This document shows, piece after piece, positions 33,780 through 40,124 of a DNA stretch of 64,000 nucleotides. The notes beneath the pieces are model-generated. The model did not search any database. It saw only the letters and a list, made by a program, of their open reading frames with translations, and was not told the DNA's origin. Source of the stretch: Mesobacillus persicus (GTDB lineage Bacteria; Bacillota; Bacilli; Bacillales; Cytobacillaceae). The position numbers were made by a program, and so were the translations under genes. Position 1 is the stretch's first letter. Each line of letters begins with the position of its first letter. The stretch covers positions 1-64,000 of the forward strand of contig NZ_FOBW01000009.1 in NCBI RefSeq assembly GCF_900109925.1, written 5' to 3'.

Positions 33780-35189
33780 GTGTCAGATGACAATAAATCT
33801 TTGGAGTATGCCATATCTGAGATCACTGAGATCGCCCGTGGTTTCGGTTTAGATTTTTACCCGATGAGATATGAGGTTTGTCCGGCTGATATCATTTATA
33901 CTTTTGGTGCATACGGGATGCCGACACGTTTTTCGCACTGGAGTTTTGGGAAGCAATACCATAAAATGAAGCTTCATTATGACTTAGGGTTGTCAAAAAT
34001 TTATGAATTAGTTATCAATTCAGATCCATGTTACGCCTTTTTACTTGATTCAAACTCACTCATCCAAAATAAGTTGATTGTTGCACACGTGCTGGCTCAT
34101 TGTGACTTCTTTAAAAACAATGTCCGTTTTCAAAATACAAAACGGGACATGGTTGAAAGCATGGCCGCTACGGCAGAGAGAATCAGGAGCTATGAAATTG
34201 AGCATGGGAAACAAGAAGTGGAAGATTTTTTAGATGCTGTGCTTGCAATCGAGGAACATATTGATCCATCCTTAATGAGACCCAAATTAAGTTGGACGTT
34301 AGATGATGCTGATATGGAAGAAGAAAGCATAATCGAGACCCCATATGATGATCTTTGGAGTCTGGAAGACAAAAAAAATCCGGTGAATAAAAAGGTTAAA
34401 AAACGTAGAAAGCTACCTCCTCAACCTGAAAAAGATTTGCTCCTCTTTATTGAAAGTTATAGCCGGGAACTGACGGATTGGCAACGGGATATTCTAACAA
34501 TGATGAGAGAAGAAATGCTGTATTTTTGGCCCCAGTTAGAAACGAAGATTATGAATGAAGGCTGGGCATCTTATTGGCATCAAAGAATTCTTAGGGAATT
34601 AGATTTGACCCCAGGCGAAGCGATTGAATTTGCGAAATTGAATGCGGGAGTCGTACAGCCTTCTAAGACGAGCATAAATCCTTATTACCTCGGTTTAAAA
34701 ATTATCGAGGATATTGAAGACCGATATGACAATCCGACTAAGGAAATGTTGGAACGTGGAGTAAAGCCGGGATCTGGTCGTGAAAAAATATTCGAAGTTC
34801 GGGAGATTGAATCCGATATCTCCTTCTTGAGAAATTATTTAACGAAAGACCTTGTTATGCGGGAAGATATGTATTTGTTCCAAAAACAAGGGAAGGATTA
34901 TAAAATTGTTGATAAGGAATGGGAACAAGTTAGGGATCAATTAGTTAGTATGAGAGTGAACGGGGGCTTTCCTTACTTAACCGTTGTTGATGGCGATTAT
35001 GATAGAAATGGTGAACTCTATCTAAAACATGGGTACGAAGGTATTGAATTGGATATCAAATACCTTGAAAAAGTGCTACCGTATGTTCACCAACTCTGGG
35101 GAAGAAAGATTCACTTGGAAACAATTGTTGAGGATCGGGATATGTTATTTACCTATGACGGGAAAGGTATCCACAGAAAATACCTTTAA
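33780..35189 (+). CDS. spoVR: Stage V sporulation protein SpoVR
   Basis: 469 residues, full length for the family. Recognisable blocks: [58 protein letters not shown] and [18 protein letters not shown]. SpoVR is involved in spore cortex formation and its proteobacterial homologue YcgB works with YeaG/YeaH (PrkA/YhbH), both of which are in this window 20 kb upstream. GTG start after AAAGGGGGAG. Confidence 0.95.
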
Positions 35190-35366: not shown

Positions 35367-35415
35367 TTGTTAAGAATATATAAGTAAGTTATTATATAAG
35401 TAAATTCTTATATAT
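35367..35415 (+). promoter_or_regulatory. ars promoter and ArsR operator region
   Basis: TTGTTA (35367), 17 bp, TATTAT (35390). Two direct copies of TATATAAGTAA flank and overlap the -10, and GAATATATAAG is answered by an inverted CTTATATATGG just before the arsR ribosome site, as expected for a dimeric ArsR repressor. Confidence 0.6.
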
Positions 35416-35431
35416 GGATGGAGGGATGAAA

Positions 35432-35770
35432 ATGAGAGAAACTTCATTGGAAGAGGCATCACTGATACTGAAATTACTTAGCGATAAAACTAGGCTTTCA
35501 ATGGTGGGTTTATTGTCTAAAAATGATTGTTGTGTATGTGAGTTTGTTGAAATCTTCAAGATGTCCCAGCCTGCTATAAGTCAGCATCTGCGCAAATTAA
35601 AGGATGCAGGGCTAGTCACAGAAAGACGAAGTGGCCAATGGATTATCTATTCCCTCAATCATCAAAATGTATTTTACCCTCTAGTGAGGGATGTCTTAAA
35701 TCATATTCCTGACCAAGGAGAAAAATTAGTATGGTTAGAGAAGCAAGGTTTAAGAATTTCATGTGATTAA
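35432..35770 (+). CDS. arsR: ArsR family arsenic-responsive repressor
   Basis: About 112 residues with the winged helix of the ArsR/SmtB family: LLSDKTRLSMVGLL, the metal-sensing Cys motif NDCCVCEF (CxC/CxxC type, in the helix that binds As(III)), and recognition helix SQPAISQHLRKLKDAGLV. The ATG at 35432 is chosen because GGAGGG lies 8 nt upstream; earlier ATGs at 35414 and 35426 overlap that site. First gene of the ars operon. Confidence 0.93.
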   Translation: MRETSLEEASLILKLLSDKTRLSMVGLLSKNDCCVCEFVEIFKMSQPAISQHLRKLKDAGLVTERRSGQWIIYSLNHQNVFYPLVRDVLNHIPDQGEKLVWLEKQGLRISCD

Positions 35771-35788
35771 ACTGGAGGCGTGATTTAT

Positions 35789-37087
35789 TTGATACAGATT
35801 GTTTTAGCCTTAACCATTTTTTTGGCGACACTTATCTTGGTCATTTGGCAACCGAAAAACTTGTCCATTGGCTGGTCTGCTTGTGGTGGGGCGATAGTGG
35901 CTTTATTGCTAGGGGTAGTCAACCTACAAGATGTATGGGATGTTACGAGTATTGTCTGGAATGCAACACTAGCGTTTGTAGCGATTATTCTTATTTCGTT
36001 AATCCTCGATGAAATTGGCCTTTTCGAATGGGCAGCGTTACATATGGCCAGAGTAGCTAACGGAAATGGATTAAAGATGTTTATTTATGTATCGATATTG
36101 GGAGCCCTTGTGGCAGCGTTCTTCGCTAACGACGGTGCAGCACTTATTTTAACTCCGATTGTTCTTGCGATGGTGAGGGCATTGAAGTTTGATGAAAAGA
36201 TGGTATTTCCGTTTATTATCGCAAGTGGATTTATCGCTGATACAACTTCCTTACCGCTAATTGTAAGTAATCTTGTTAATATTGTTTCAGCAGATTTCTT
36301 TAACATCGGGTTTGTCGAGTATGCTTCAAGAATGATTGTTCCAAATTTCTTTTCCTTAGGCGCTAGTATTTTGGTTTTATATTTATTTTTCCGAAAAAGC
36401 ATTCCCAAAAAATATAATCTTGCTCATTTAAAGCAACCAAATGAAGCGATTCGGGATGAAAAGATGTTTCGTCTATCCTGGGTTGTACTAGGGATTCTCT
36501 TGATTGGTTATCTTACCAGCGAATTCCTTGGAATTCCAGTCTCAGTTATTGCAGGAATTATTGCAATCTTTTTCTTACTTATGGCTAGAAAAAGCCATGC
36601 AGTAGATACTCGGACTGTCATAAAAGGAGCACCGTGGAGTATCGTCTTTTTCTCTATTGGTATGTATGTTGTCGTTTATGGGCTAAGAAATGCAGGCCTC
36701 ACCAATGTGCTATCTGATTTTATACAGTGGACAGCAGATCATGGGTTATTTGCAGCTACAATTGGAATGGGATTTATTGCAGCGATTCTTTCTTCGGTTA
36801 TGAATAACATGCCTACTGTCATGATAGATGCATTGGCAATTGCGGATACTAATACCACTGGTGTTGTTCGAGAAGCATTAATTTACGCGAATGTGATTGG
36901 CTCCGACTTAGGACCGAAAATTACACCGATTGGGTCTTTAGCAACGCTTTTATGGTTACATGTATTAAGTTTAAAAGGAGTTAAAATTTCCTGGGGTACT
37001 TACTTTAAAACGGGGATTATACTGACCATACCAACCTTATTTATAACCTTGGTAGGACTTTATCTATGGTTACTCATTATTTCATAG
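35789..37087 (+). CDS. arsB: ArsB arsenite efflux permease
   Basis: About 432 residues with 11-12 membrane spans of the ArsB/NhaD ion-transporter superfamily ([79 protein letters not shown]). It extrudes As(III)/Sb(III), alone by membrane potential or energised by ArsA encoded downstream. Start is TTG 35789 (GGAGG at 10 nt) or GTG 35780 (too close). 18 bp after arsR, so co-transcribed. Confidence 0.93.
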
Positions 37088-37094
37088 ACTTAGT

Positions 37095-37164
37095 TGCTGT
37101 GTTAAAGGACATTGTTGATTTTGCTAACCGTTGATTGGAGCGGAAATCAACGTACTTGTTCATT
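37095..37164. mobile_element. GC-rich repeat, internally deleted copy inside the ars operon
   Basis: Left end GCTGTGTTAAAGG and inner arm GTTGATTGGAGCGG match the full copy at 24.2 kb. The arm then joins directly to AAATCAACGTACTTG, which corresponds to the right side, as if the GC-rich core was lost between two GGAGCG repeats. It separates arsB from arsC. Confidence 0.65.
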
Positions 37165-37186: not shown

Positions 37187-37606
37187 ATGACTAAAAAAAC
37201 GATTTATTTTCTATGTACTGGAAACTCTTGCCGAAGCCAAATGGCAGAAGGTTGGGCAAAGAAACATCTTGGAGATGAGTGGGAAGTTAAAAGTGCTGGT
37301 CTTGAAGCGCATGGTCTAAATCCGAATGCAGTAAAAGCAATGGAAGAAGCCGGGATTGACATTGCTGGACAGACTTCGGATGTCATTGATAATGAAATTT
37401 TAAACAACGCAGAGCTTGTTGTAACTTTATGTGGACATGCAGCTGACCATTGTCCAGTCACACCCCCACATGTAAAAAGAGTTCATTGGGGATTTGATGA
37501 CCCTGCAAAGGCGGAAGGAACTGAAGAGGAGAAATGGGCATTTTTCCAACGAGTCCGTGACGAGATAGGAGACCGTATTGAACGGTTTTCAAAAACTGGG
37601 GAGTAA
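37187..37606 (+). CDS. arsC: Arsenate reductase, thioredoxin-coupled
   Basis: 139 residues of the low-molecular-weight phosphatase-like ArsC class. P-loop CTGNSCRS with Cys10 and Arg16, and resolving cysteines in [10 protein letters not shown] (about 82 and 89). Reduces As(V) to As(III) for export. The ATG at 37187 follows AAAGGAGAT; 100 bp from arsB because of the intervening repeat. Confidence 0.95.
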
Positions 37607-37637: not shown

Positions 37638-37985
37638 GTGAAAAGATTAGAGGTTTTTGACCCTGCGTTATGCTGTCCAACGGGCGTGTGTGGGCCTAGT
37701 GTAGATCCTGAGTTGATTAGGATTGCATCTGCGCTCTTTCTTTTAGAAGGAAAGGGATTTTCCATTGATCGATATAATCTAAGTAGTGAACCAAGCGCCT
37801 TTGTAACGAATACAAAGGTCAATCAGTTACTAAATGAAAAAGGGCCGGATATATTGCCAATTATCCTATTAGATAATGAAGTCATCATGACAGGAAGCTA
37901 CCCTGAGAATAAAGCGTTGGCCGAATGGTTTGATATTAATCCTGATGAACTCGTTGCAAAACCTTCAAGTAAAAGTTTACTTTAA
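37638..37985 (+). CDS. arsD: ArsD arsenic metallochaperone
   Basis: 115 residues. The three As(III)-binding cysteines Cys12, Cys13 and Cys18 (ALCCPTGVCGP) are present; ArsD hands arsenite to ArsA. GTG start after GGGGAGTGG. C-terminal cysteine pairs found in some ArsD proteins are absent. Confidence 0.93.
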   Translation: MKRLEVFDPALCCPTGVCGPSVDPELIRIASALFLLEGKGFSIDRYNLSSEPSAFVTNTKVNQLLNEKGPDILPIILLDNEVIMTGSYPENKALAEWFDINPDELVAKPSSKSLL

Positions 37986-37999
37986 AAGGGGTAGTTAAA

Positions 38000-39775
38000 A
38001 TGTTTCCTAAGTTTGAACCATTAAATATGGTATTTACCCCTTATCTATTTTTTACAGGTAAGGGAGGAGTAGGAAAAACATCAACAGCCAGTGCATTAGC
38101 CATTCACCTGGCTGATAAGGGGAAAAAGGTTTTAATCGTCTCGACCGACCCTGCATCCAATCTCCAGGATGTTTTCGAGGTAGAACTTTCCAACGAGATC
38201 AAACCTATTCCACAGGTTAATGGACTTTACGCTTGTAATATCAATCCGGAAGAAGCTGCAAGGAAGTATCGTGAAAGGGTTGTAGGTCCCTATAAGGGCA
38301 AGTTACCAGAAAGTGTGATTACCTCGATGGAAGAGCAATTATCCGGGGCTTGTACCGTGGAAATTGCAGCCTTTGATGAATTCACCAATTTATTGGCGAA
38401 TCCTTCGATTAAGAAGGAATACGATCACGTCCTTTTTGACACCGCACCTACCGGCCACACTCTTCGATTGCTTCAATTACCGAGTGCTTGGACGGAATTC
38501 TTAAATGAGAGCACACATGGTGCGAGCTGTCTAGGACCGCTTGCGGGTCTTGAAGGGAAAAAAGAATTATATGCCAATACAGTTGACTCGCTTTCAGCAC
38601 CGGATGAAACGACTCTGTTCCTGGTGGCACGGCCAGATGAATCAAGTTTAAAGGAAGCATCAAGAGCTTCTGAAGAGCTTTCTAGTGTTGGGATAATTAA
38701 TCAGTGCTTGTTAATTAATGGTGTGTTACGAACACATATTCAAGGTGATACAGTTTCAGAGGCATTCTGGGAGAAACAGCATAAGGCATTATCACGAATT
38801 CCAAAGGGTTTGAAGAATAGGTCTATTTTTGAAACTCAATTGGTTCCTTACTCATTAACGGGAATACAATCCCTTAGGGCTTTTTTCTCGGCAGAAGAGA
38901 CAAAGGGTATAGCCTTCAGCAACGAAATAAAAAGTATTGAACTTCCACAGTTCAACAAGGTTATCAACGATTTAGAAGCAAGGAAGATAAAAGTTATATT
39001 CACGATGGGAAAAGGTGGAGTTGGGAAAACTACAATTGCTTCTGCGATAGCTGTTGGATTAGCAGAACGCGGACATCGGGTGCACTTAACGACCACTGAC
39101 CCTGCGGCCCATATAACAAATGTCCTTGGAAAAGAAACTGTTGAGAACTTAACATTGAGTCGAATTGACCCAAAGGTGGAAGTGGAGGCTTACCGAGAGG
39201 AAGTAATATCAAAGGTTTCGAACGAATTAGATGAGAATGCAATTGCTTATATCAAGGAGGATTTAGAATCTCCTTGTACTGAGGAAATAGCCATTTTCCG
39301 TGCTTTTGCTGAAGTTGTTTCTAGAGCTAAAGAAGAAATTGTCGTGATTGACACAGCTCCCACCGGGCATACCTTGTTGCTGTTAGATGCAACGAATACC
39401 TATCATAAAGAATTGGAACGATCAACTGGAGAGATTCCTGAAAGTGTCAAAGAGTTACTTCCAAGATTGCGGAACCCACAAGAAACGGAAGTGGTAATTG
39501 TGACGCTTCCTGAGGCAACACCAGTGTTCGAGGCGAAGAGACTACAAGAGGATTTAATACGGGCGGAAATTAACCCAAACTGGTGGGTAATCAATCAGAG
39601 CTTTTTCGCAACTGAAACAACCGATCCGGTTTTAAGGGGAAGAGCCCTGTCAGAAACATCTTGGATTGATATGGTGGGGGCTAACCTGGCTAAGCATTTT
39701 GCTGTAATTCCGTGGACAAAGGATGATATAATCGGACAAAAGCAGCTTAAAGAAATGGTACAAACGAAAGGGTGA
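38000..39775 (+). CDS. arsA: ArsA arsenite-transporting ATPase
   Basis: 591 residues with two homologous ATPase halves: P-loops GKGGVGKTS (about 20-28) and GKGGVGKTT (about 337-345), each followed by a DTAPTGHTL signature. The three metalloid-binding cysteines are in place: SGACTVE (118), GASCLGP (177) and ESPCTEE (426). Energises ArsB. ATG after AAAAGGGG, 14 bp from arsD. Its stop is 6 bp before the selenoprotein gene. Confidence 0.96.
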   Translation: MFPKFEPLNMVFTPYLFFTGKGGVGKTSTASALAIHLADKGKKVLIVSTDPASNLQDVFEVELSNEIKPIPQVNGLYACNINPEEAARKYRERVVGPYKGKLPESVITSMEEQLSGACTVEIAAFDEFTNLLANPSIKKEYDHVLFDTAPTGHTLRLLQLPSAWTEFLNESTHGASCLGPLAGLEGKKELYANTVDSLSAPDETTLFLVARPDESSLKEASRASEELSSVGIINQCLLINGVLRTHIQGDTVSEAFWEKQHKALSRIPKGLKNRSIFETQLVPYSLTGIQSLRAFFSAEETKGIAFSNEIKSIELPQFNKVINDLEARKIKVIFTMGKGGVGKTTIASAIAVGLAERGHRVHLTTTDPAAHITNVLGKETVENLTLSRIDPKVEVEAYREEVISKVSNELDENAIAYIKEDLESPCTEEIAIFRAFAEVVSRAKEEIVVIDTAPTGHTLLLLDATNTYHKELERSTGEIPESVKELLPRLRNPQETEVVIVTLPEATPVFEAKRLQEDLIRAEINPNWWVINQSFFATETTDPVLRGRALSETSWIDMVGANLAKHFAVIPWTKDDIIGQKQLKEMVQTKG

Positions 39776-39781
39776 AAATAA

Positions 39782-40060
39782 ATGCAAATTACAAATGATG
39801 CACGAGAAGTGTTAAAAGAAGTGCTGAAAGAACAAAATGCAGCTGGCATCCGTGTCTACTTTGCGGGCTTTGGCTGAGGGGGTCCACAAATTGGACTGGC
39901 TCTGGATGAGCCGGAAGCAGAGGATAAGGTAATAACTATAAACGAAATTCAAGTGGCAATTGATCCGCAGATAGAGGACAATACAGAAATATTAACACTT
40001 GATTTTGATAAACAGCAAAACGGTTTAGTTCTACTTGGTAACGAAAGTGATTGTTGCTAA
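39782..40060 (+). CDS. HesB-like selenoprotein (CC/Se motif), read through in-frame TGA
   Basis: ATG at 39782, six bases after the arsA stop and preceded by AAAGGGTG, opens a frame with a single TGA at 39875-39877 (codon 32) and a true TAA at 40058. Read as selenocysteine, it gives 92 residues with GFG-Sec-GGP in the place of the Cys motif of the HesB/IscA-like fold, and the product ends Asp-Cys-Cys. Coding character is continuous across the TGA (frame open, acidic, ending at an operon terminator). Small HesB-like Sec or Cys proteins with a C-terminal CC are a known family. Being last in an ars operon suggests a redox or metalloid-binding role. The alternative is a pseudogene with one nonsense mutation. 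Confidence 0.82.
39878..39912 (+). promoter_or_regulatory. Bacterial SECIS-like hairpin
   Basis: Directly after the TGA: GTCC/GGAC, then GGCTC/GAGCC (39898-39902 with 39908-39912) enclosing TGGAT. The apical loop, with exposed guanines, lies about 26-30 nt past the TGA, within the spacing seen for bacterial SECIS elements. Confidence 0.6.
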
Positions 40061-40076
40061 GGATTGACGAACTAGT

Positions 40077-40124
40077 AAAAAAGCAGCGAGGGTGATTAAT
40101 CTATACCCCTTGCTGCTTTTTTGT
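40077..40124. terminator. Terminator of the ars operon, bidirectional
   Basis: AAAAAAGCAGCGAGGG/CCCCTTGCTGCTTTTTT, after the selenoprotein stop and not after arsA. Confidence 0.85.

Follow-up and report, generated by a model that had tools for sequence, protein, structure and literature searches.

A predicted HesB-like selenoprotein gene at the end of an ars operon of Mesobacillus persicus, with a possible role in arsenite handling

The ars operon of Mesobacillus persicus that lies in the 64,000-nucleotide stretch of DNA analysed here (the window) almost certainly has as its last gene a HesB/IscA-like frame, hesB-U, giving the order arsRBCDA-hesB-U (Table 1). With equally high confidence, on comparison of the gene with its relatives, its in-frame UGA is taken to be decoded as selenocysteine (Sec) by the host's SelABCD system. 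The whole explanation that we propose, in which this Sec-decoded last ars gene provides the arsenic pump with a HesB/IscA-like, three-chalcogen carrier of As(III), is offered tentatively, as one that falls a little short of being probable.

Table 1. Coordinates, in the window, of the ars operon, of its 5' flank and of the elements of hesB-U
Feature	Position	Strand	Basis
spoVR, 5' flank of ars genes	33780..35189	+	PF04293; gene order
arsR	35414..35770	+	NF033788 above cut-off over 35426-35767
arsB	35780..37087	+	TIGR00935 above cut-off
arsC, thioredoxin type	37187..37606	+	TIGR02691 above cut-off
arsD metallochaperone	37638..37985	+	NF033727 above cut-off
arsA pump ATPase	38000..39775	+	TIGR04291, 852 bits (cut-off 650)
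hesB-U, predicted HesB/IscA-like selenoprotein gene, 92 codons, TAA stop	39782..40060	+	frame; PF01521; dN/dS
UGA codon, predicted to be read as selenocysteine (residue 32)	39875..39877	+	conservation of TGA in relatives
SECIS hairpin, 7 bp stem, loop UGGAU	39896..39914	+	fold; conservation; synonymous-recoding test
Cys91-Cys92 codons, C-terminal	40052..40057	+	CC end in 40/41 distinct ars-linked Sec proteins
operon terminator hairpin	40077..40122	+	-27.1 kcal/mol, 0/200 shuffles

The hesB-U frame begins with ATG after a gap of 6 bp from the end of arsA (39775 to 39782), holds a single in-frame TGA, at codon 32 in the context GFG-U-GGP, and continues to a TAA, the product ending in Asp-Cys-Cys. 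A strong terminator hairpin follows (the segment 40062-40130 folds at -27.1 kcal/mol, z -7.0, equalled by none of 200 shuffles). The preliminary description of this DNA had named the TGA and its context, the onward frame, the Cys-Cys end, the 6 bp spacing from arsA, a hairpin at SECIS distance (25 nt, as detailed below) and the operon terminator, and all of these are found. Its claim that the gene escapes ordinary annotation gains indirect support from five Cytobacillus plasmid copies, whose Sec codon is TGA and for which the PLSDB gene table (described as incomplete) lists no CDS. A promoter scan gave no excess (11 found against 13.2 expected). Between arsB and arsC of the window there is an inverted repeat at 37129-37152; the accessible text on the ars1 operon of Bacillus sp. 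CDB3, a single eight-gene operon, describes an attenuator-like hairpin between arsC and arsD (PMC4562236).

The host genome (4.64 Mb in 40 contigs, 99.99% complete as a computed figure) encodes SelA, SelB and SelD above cut-off and a tRNA-Sec (selC) above its gathering score, so that the four genes singled out beforehand as the first thing to look for are all present. It also harbours a second hesB-U copy, on contig C40, placed directly after a second arsA and likewise TGA-bearing; the two products are 65% identical and the two genes share a run of 23 identical bases that begins 13 bases past the TGA. (The frames 3' of the contig C40 copy resemble, judging in part by like-placed annotated genes, a dual-specificity phosphatase and a thioredoxin reductase.) Altogether, TGA occupies the Sec codon in 95 distinct copies, both host copies included, copies being collapsed if their first 270 nt are the same. 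Past the TGA, dN/dS is 0.06-0.25 against eight of the nine relatives tested, the ninth having no defined dS; these values are rough because dS mostly exceeds 1, and judged by them hesB-U is under purifying selection 3' of its TGA.

Synonymous sites downstream of the TGA are frozen in the TGA copies: the Ala codon at +8 is GCT in 89 of 90, the Leu codon at +9 CTG in 94 of 94, the Asp codon at +10 GAT in 85 of 86 and the Glu codon at +11 GAG in 93 of 94. In the copies with Cys at the aligned position (34 distinct; n=29 for this residue) the same Leu is written CTT 8, TTA 7, TTG 6, CTC 5 and CTG 3 times, and the string GGCTCTGGATGAGCC, present in 78/95 Sec copies, occurs in 0/34 Cys copies. (L077, L175, L192, L162 and L052_6001, which do not have the Cys pattern used in this codon comparison, are left out of it.) The contrary reading, that translation ends at the TGA and that the frame beyond it is the relic of a dead gene, can call on one relative (L077/L175), in which a TAA replaces the TGA next to a broken arsA; against it stand the recurrence of the same TGA in 95 distinct copies, two of them in one genome, the purifying selection past it, the freezing of hairpin codons in TGA copies only and the completeness of the host's SelABCD system, and we regard it as extremely improbable. 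A Trp or Arg codon or a stop in homologues had been named in advance as evidence against decoding as Sec: the loci read hold TGA or Cys, with the TAA in that one relative. The L077/L175 gene (G010 contig C2:43781-44056) keeps its SECIS string intact and its neighbouring arsA is cut down to about the last 65 codons; the TAA is apparently a recent loss. Readthrough of the UGA as Trp is unsupported, the homologues read carrying Cys, and sequencing error was dismissed as the source of a TGA that one genome carries twice and 95 distinct copies share, with selection past it.

The putative SECIS element is a hairpin 25 nt past the TGA, with stem arms at 39896-39902 and 39908-39914 and the loop UGGAU at 39903-39907. 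It folds at -12.2 kcal/mol, equalled by 2 of 200 shuffles, and lies within every limit of the bacterial SECIS model given in the accessible text of PMC13188914 (loop of 3-9 nt, stem of 4-16 bp, a G among the first two loop nucleotides, spacing of 16-37 nt, MFE <= -7.5). Longer stretches fold less distinctly (39870-39925, 30/200 shuffles as good; 39872-39915, 14/200). Every one of the seven stem pairs is formed by 88-95 of the 95 TGA copies, and 85 of them have the loop UGGAU; two-sided pair changes appear in 13 sequences (a count of sequences, not of independent events), mostly at the outermost pair and in three at inner pairs. The Sec set yields one consensus hairpin of seven pairs at -11.9 kcal/mol and the Cys set, when folded, none. 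In the synonymous-recoding test, 80 of 95 Sec copies fold better than 95% of their recodings and 15 fail, as against 4 of 35 Cys copies (35 here rather than 34 on account of a slightly wider Cys pattern). Rfam returned two matches, both below gathering score and both to eukaryotic families. The adjoining hairpin at 39881-39897, the first fold considered, was set aside; it pairs differently in the second host copy, and the relatives' consensus fold, which began at 39890, does not span it.

How general is the arrangement? The host family (193 genomes) has 75 arsA loci above cut-off, in 69 genomes, and at 67 of them a HesB-like gene follows on the same strand at a distance of no more than 3 kb, within 200 bp in 33 of the 67; phosphatase or trxB genes can intervene. 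In a sample of the class (398 genomes) the corresponding figure is 40 of 57 arsA loci, 35 of the 40 within 200 bp. Chance should give well under one such neighbour, on an estimate that allows a few matches to each 5 Mb genome. Of the plasmid records, 19 have a match, and in every one the HesB-like gene lies in an ars cluster (one region was read per record, and one record has a second matching place); the five Cytobacillus copies with TGA are among them, and the cluster of an Alicyclobacillus record is without arsA in the stretch read. The link of HesB-like genes to ars genes is thus systematic.

The form of the gene varies with the genome that carries it. The 67 linked copies of the family divide into 49 with TGA and 18 without a stop. 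TGA is found in 48 of the 59 that belong to selB-positive genomes and in one of the eight whose genomes have no selB match, the one being in G145 (94% complete, ~720 contigs). In the class sample, all 31 linked copies from genomes without a selB match are free of a stop, and the selB-positive genomes contribute 6 copies with TGA and 3 not. Family and class together, genomes without a selB match account for 39 linked copies, of which 38 are stop-free. Looked at the other way, selB is present in 40 of the 42 class genomes with a TGA-bearing match, exact TGA position having been checked only for the fetched matches. Two genomes are exceptions. In G558 the TGA interrupts the frame at a codon other than the Sec codon; in G296 it does occupy the Sec codon, in a distant HesB-like member (contig C1:1196359-1196640), and three genomes of the same genus code do have selB. 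A TAA in the second, Cys-type copy of G003 lies at another codon. Comparison of genomes therefore supports the view that the choice between Sec and Cys forms follows the presence of the selenocysteine machinery. The locus of Mesobacillus selenatarsenatis SF-1 (L029), a species with an epithet that alludes to selenate and arsenate, reads arsR-arsB-arsC-arsD-arsA-hesB-U-phosphatase-trxB.

The product scores 30.7 bits against PF01521 (Fe-S_biosyn, HesB/IscA; cut-off 26.3). With C scored for Sec, it reaches 58.4 bits against TIGR01911, the HesB-like selenoprotein model (cut-off 66.35), against which four other Sec members of the subfamily score 45.1-62.3, and it reaches 56.3 bits against NF038090, IscA_HesB_Se (cut-off 85). 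Being below both cut-offs, the subfamily is formally uncovered by either model. What it has in common with the TIGR01911 family is the IscA/HesB-like sequence, Sec in U-x-x-P (U-G-G-P here, the motif of UxGP type), a bacterial SECIS and Cys homologues; what sets it apart, beside the score, is its CC end and its ars operon setting. It likewise shares with the IscA, SufA and ErpA carriers its sequence family and the place of the first ligand Cys, and differs from them in falling far under all three cut-offs and in having, instead of the A-type ligand set Cys...CxC, Sec32 and a C-terminal CC (or, in other members, C). Sec32 falls in the same alignment column as the first Cys of HI1723 (PDB 2apn, which we take to be ErpA-type; E 0.00019) and, in a profile comparison over 77 columns, as that of the host's own IscA-type protein (E 1.3e-7). 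In an AlphaFold2 model built with 26 sequences, confident in its core (mean pLDDT 87.6, pTM 0.74), residue 32 sits in the turn that joins strand 22-31 to strand 34-40; the pLDDT of residues 91-92 is ~50, and a three-ligand geometry is therefore beyond what the model supports.

Candidate ligands can nevertheless be counted. Where Sec forms have U-G-x-P, the Cys forms read have mostly G-C-C-G-P. The ars-linked Sec proteins (41 distinct) end in CC in 40 cases and in no case have a further Cys before the last 8 residues; the ars-linked Cys proteins (n=30), mostly with the GCCGP motif, end in C in 15 cases and in CC in 15. Nearly all of these ars-linked proteins therefore offer three or four candidate ligands. 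This pattern is not peculiar to the ars setting, since 36 of the 54 Sec proteins without an ars label also end in CC.

We propose that host SelABCD reads the UGA as selenocysteine, directed by the downstream hairpin, that Sec32 would stand in for the first ligand Cys of the A-type carriers and that Sec32, Cys91 and Cys92 would come together in one three-coordinate site for As(III) (or Sb(III)). The bound As(III) might then be passed to the ArsD/ArsA/ArsB pump, or be kept from the thiols of the cell, by what would be a small metalloid carrier recruited from an iron-sulphur carrier fold. ArsD, whose As(III) site consists of three Cys, offers an analogy in manner of working: it too is a small protein of the same operon, and three chalcogen ligands for As(III) are what is proposed here. 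It is not an analogy of sequence, for family scans report no match and the operon has a real arsD besides. As a function for the hesB-U product, carriage of As(III) is plausible and somewhat doubtful. More doubtful again, if a possibility worth stating, is the general form of the idea: a selenium-based arsenic carrier on the IscA fold, binding through one selenolate and two thiolates, with Sec and Cys exchanged according to the decoding capacity of the host.

The fold itself suggests a different function. The IscA/ErpA fold family handles Fe-S clusters in E. coli, and the hesB-U product could be an A-type carrier (IscA/ErpA-like) that rebuilds arsenite-damaged Fe-S clusters or delivers new ones, Sec conferring resistance to oxidation or stronger cluster transfer. 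The PF01521 score and the alignments with HI1723 and the host IscA-type protein are what one would expect of such a protector; replacement of the IscA-type CxC tail by a terminal CC or single C, scores far under the ErpA, SufA and IscA cut-offs and a position after arsA in the linked loci are not, and we judge this function unlikely. It is also conceivable, if distinctly unlikely, that Sec32 works with Cys91/92 in selenol/thiol redox or sulphur transfer, either reducing or carrying persulphide on behalf of ArsC, thio-arsenicals or sulphur/selenium trafficking, fed by the TrxB of some operons. A number of these ars operons do include trxB and a dual-specificity phosphatase gene, and in Cytobacillus and some others hesB-U is followed, with or without ars genes, by genes for DsrE, a TusA-rhodanese and a persulphide dioxygenase; the protein has no CxxC or UxxC motif, however, trxB is missing from the window's own ars operon and many members are without any of these neighbours. 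DsrE, TusA-rhodanese, persulphide dioxygenase and TusA genes are seen after hesB-U in L033, L034, L035, L039, L042, L043, L202, L025, L031 and L036; in L031 and L036 the sulphur genes follow a hesB-U that is itself preceded by ars genes. Neighbours of this kind point to a sulphur-trafficking setting.

Ars genes do not always accompany the gene: 54 of the 95 distinct Sec proteins in the tree set lack an ars label. This is an upper bound, 23 of the 54 labels coming from loci with a flank of 1.5 kb only. (Two Cys rows, L107 and L111, likewise owe the label 'other' to loci that are short or cut; for L107 a longer stretch, L134, shows arsC.) On the tree, which is weakly resolved (131 distinct proteins, 93 columns), the Sec/Cys state changes at least 5 times and ars linkage at least 20 times, and the starred branches require the Sec-with-ars label to have changed at least 6 times. 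A single origin of the 32 main-group Cys forms is weakly rejected (AU p 0.029, for a group defined after seeing the tree).

The window copy clusters with the non-ars copies of three congeners (support 99/81). In these congeners, G094, G095 and G097 (L163-L165), hesB-U comes immediately after spoVR, ars genes being absent from the interval, and each genome holds an arsA elsewhere. The order in L163, a gene we assume to be phosphoglucomutase-like, then spoVR, hesB-U and a YhcN-like lipoprotein gene, is that of the window minus arsRBCDA. When the gaps before hesB-U were compared at nucleotide level with the end of the window's arsA, L163 scored 40 (best of 200 shuffles 27), L164 35 (30) and L023 32 (25). 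For the L024 gap a signal emerges when the arsA ends of L036 and L031 are used (43 vs 31 and 27) but not with the window's arsA end, which 102 of 200 shuffles matched as well. No remnant of arsA was detected in the gaps of L165, L033 and L039, where 141, 98 and 14 of 200 shuffles did equally well. Each gap was compared with six arsA ends, and a doubtful match of L173 with L041 (25 vs 24) marks the limit of the test. At protein level only L163 (0/200) and L023 (1/200) stand out, in contrast to L164 (21), L165 (77), L024 (86) and L039 (194 of 200). A larger arsA fragment persists in L025. The arsA-like stretches in the gaps of L163, L164, L023 and L024 are best explained as remnants of former ars genes, and hesB-U would seem to have been kept at some sites after the ars genes were lost.

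Parts of this picture have precedents. Knowledge of HesB-like selenoproteins goes back to the early surveys (PMC1794560, PMC1914089, PMC13188914); Table 1 of PMC13188914 gives them with the motif UxGP, and the same source, so far as its accessible text goes, does not mention an ars context for them, lists arsenite methyltransferase and arsenate reductase selenoproteins and describes the function of the HesB-like ones as largely uncharacterised. On the arsenic side, a HesB-like orf7 belongs to the ars1 operon of Bacillus sp. CDB3 and its B. cereus relatives (PMC4562236), and transcript of the hesB of an Exiguobacterium ars operon is raised with those of arsA, arsR and arsD, 8% vs 0% (PMC8779447). 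Like hesB-U, which is of the orf7 type in lying downstream of arsA on the same strand, these are HesB-like genes within arsA-containing ars operons; unlike it, they are reported as ordinary genes, with no mention of selenocysteine in the parts of the two papers at hand. (A HesB-like gene on a B. arachidis plasmid, L087, has Cys-Cys at the Sec site.) The preliminary description had presented the tie between a selenoprotein and the ars operon as its most striking point. The tie of HesB-like genes to ars operons is not new, having been published for ordinary frames in those two papers. The Sec form is another matter: a literature search whose scope excluded most subscription journals found no paper that ties HesB-like selenoproteins to ars operons. 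What appears to be new, on that search, is the Sec form in ars operons, its SECIS, the machinery-dependent exchange of Sec and Cys and the frequency of the gene after arsA.

The ars operons are among the best studied of metal operons, and yet 67 of 75 arsA loci in one bacterial family have a HesB-like gene downstream; with TGA in 48 of 59 linked cases in selB-positive genomes, frame-based annotation would tend to skip it. For the HesB-like selenoproteins the ars operon is a testable setting, and a natural series of Sec and Cys forms at one operon position gives a handle on why selenium is used. If As(III) binding proves true, two elements of known mutual chemistry would be united in one cell-made protein; with a selenium-based carrier, arsenic resistance would be linked, within the core ars operon itself, to the supply of selenium.

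Several other loci deserve mention. In Clostridium sp. CCUG 7971 (L052:6001-6724) a Cys and a Sec HesB-like copy, both with Cys-rich tails, lie adjacent in tandem. On contig C28 of the host, selD (288762-289688, +) lies ~1.5 kb away from selA; a TGA interrupts the selD frame close to the start (AG-U-GC), and a hairpin follows it. A third HesB-family frame of the host (contig C19:224927-225223, +), remote from TIGR01911 at 20.3 bits, has one in-frame TGA, in the context TTG-U-GAT, and is possibly another selenoprotein; the hairpin UUGCUCA-GGU-UGAGCAA lies ~29 nt downstream, in a 71-nt stretch that as a whole folds no better than shuffles.
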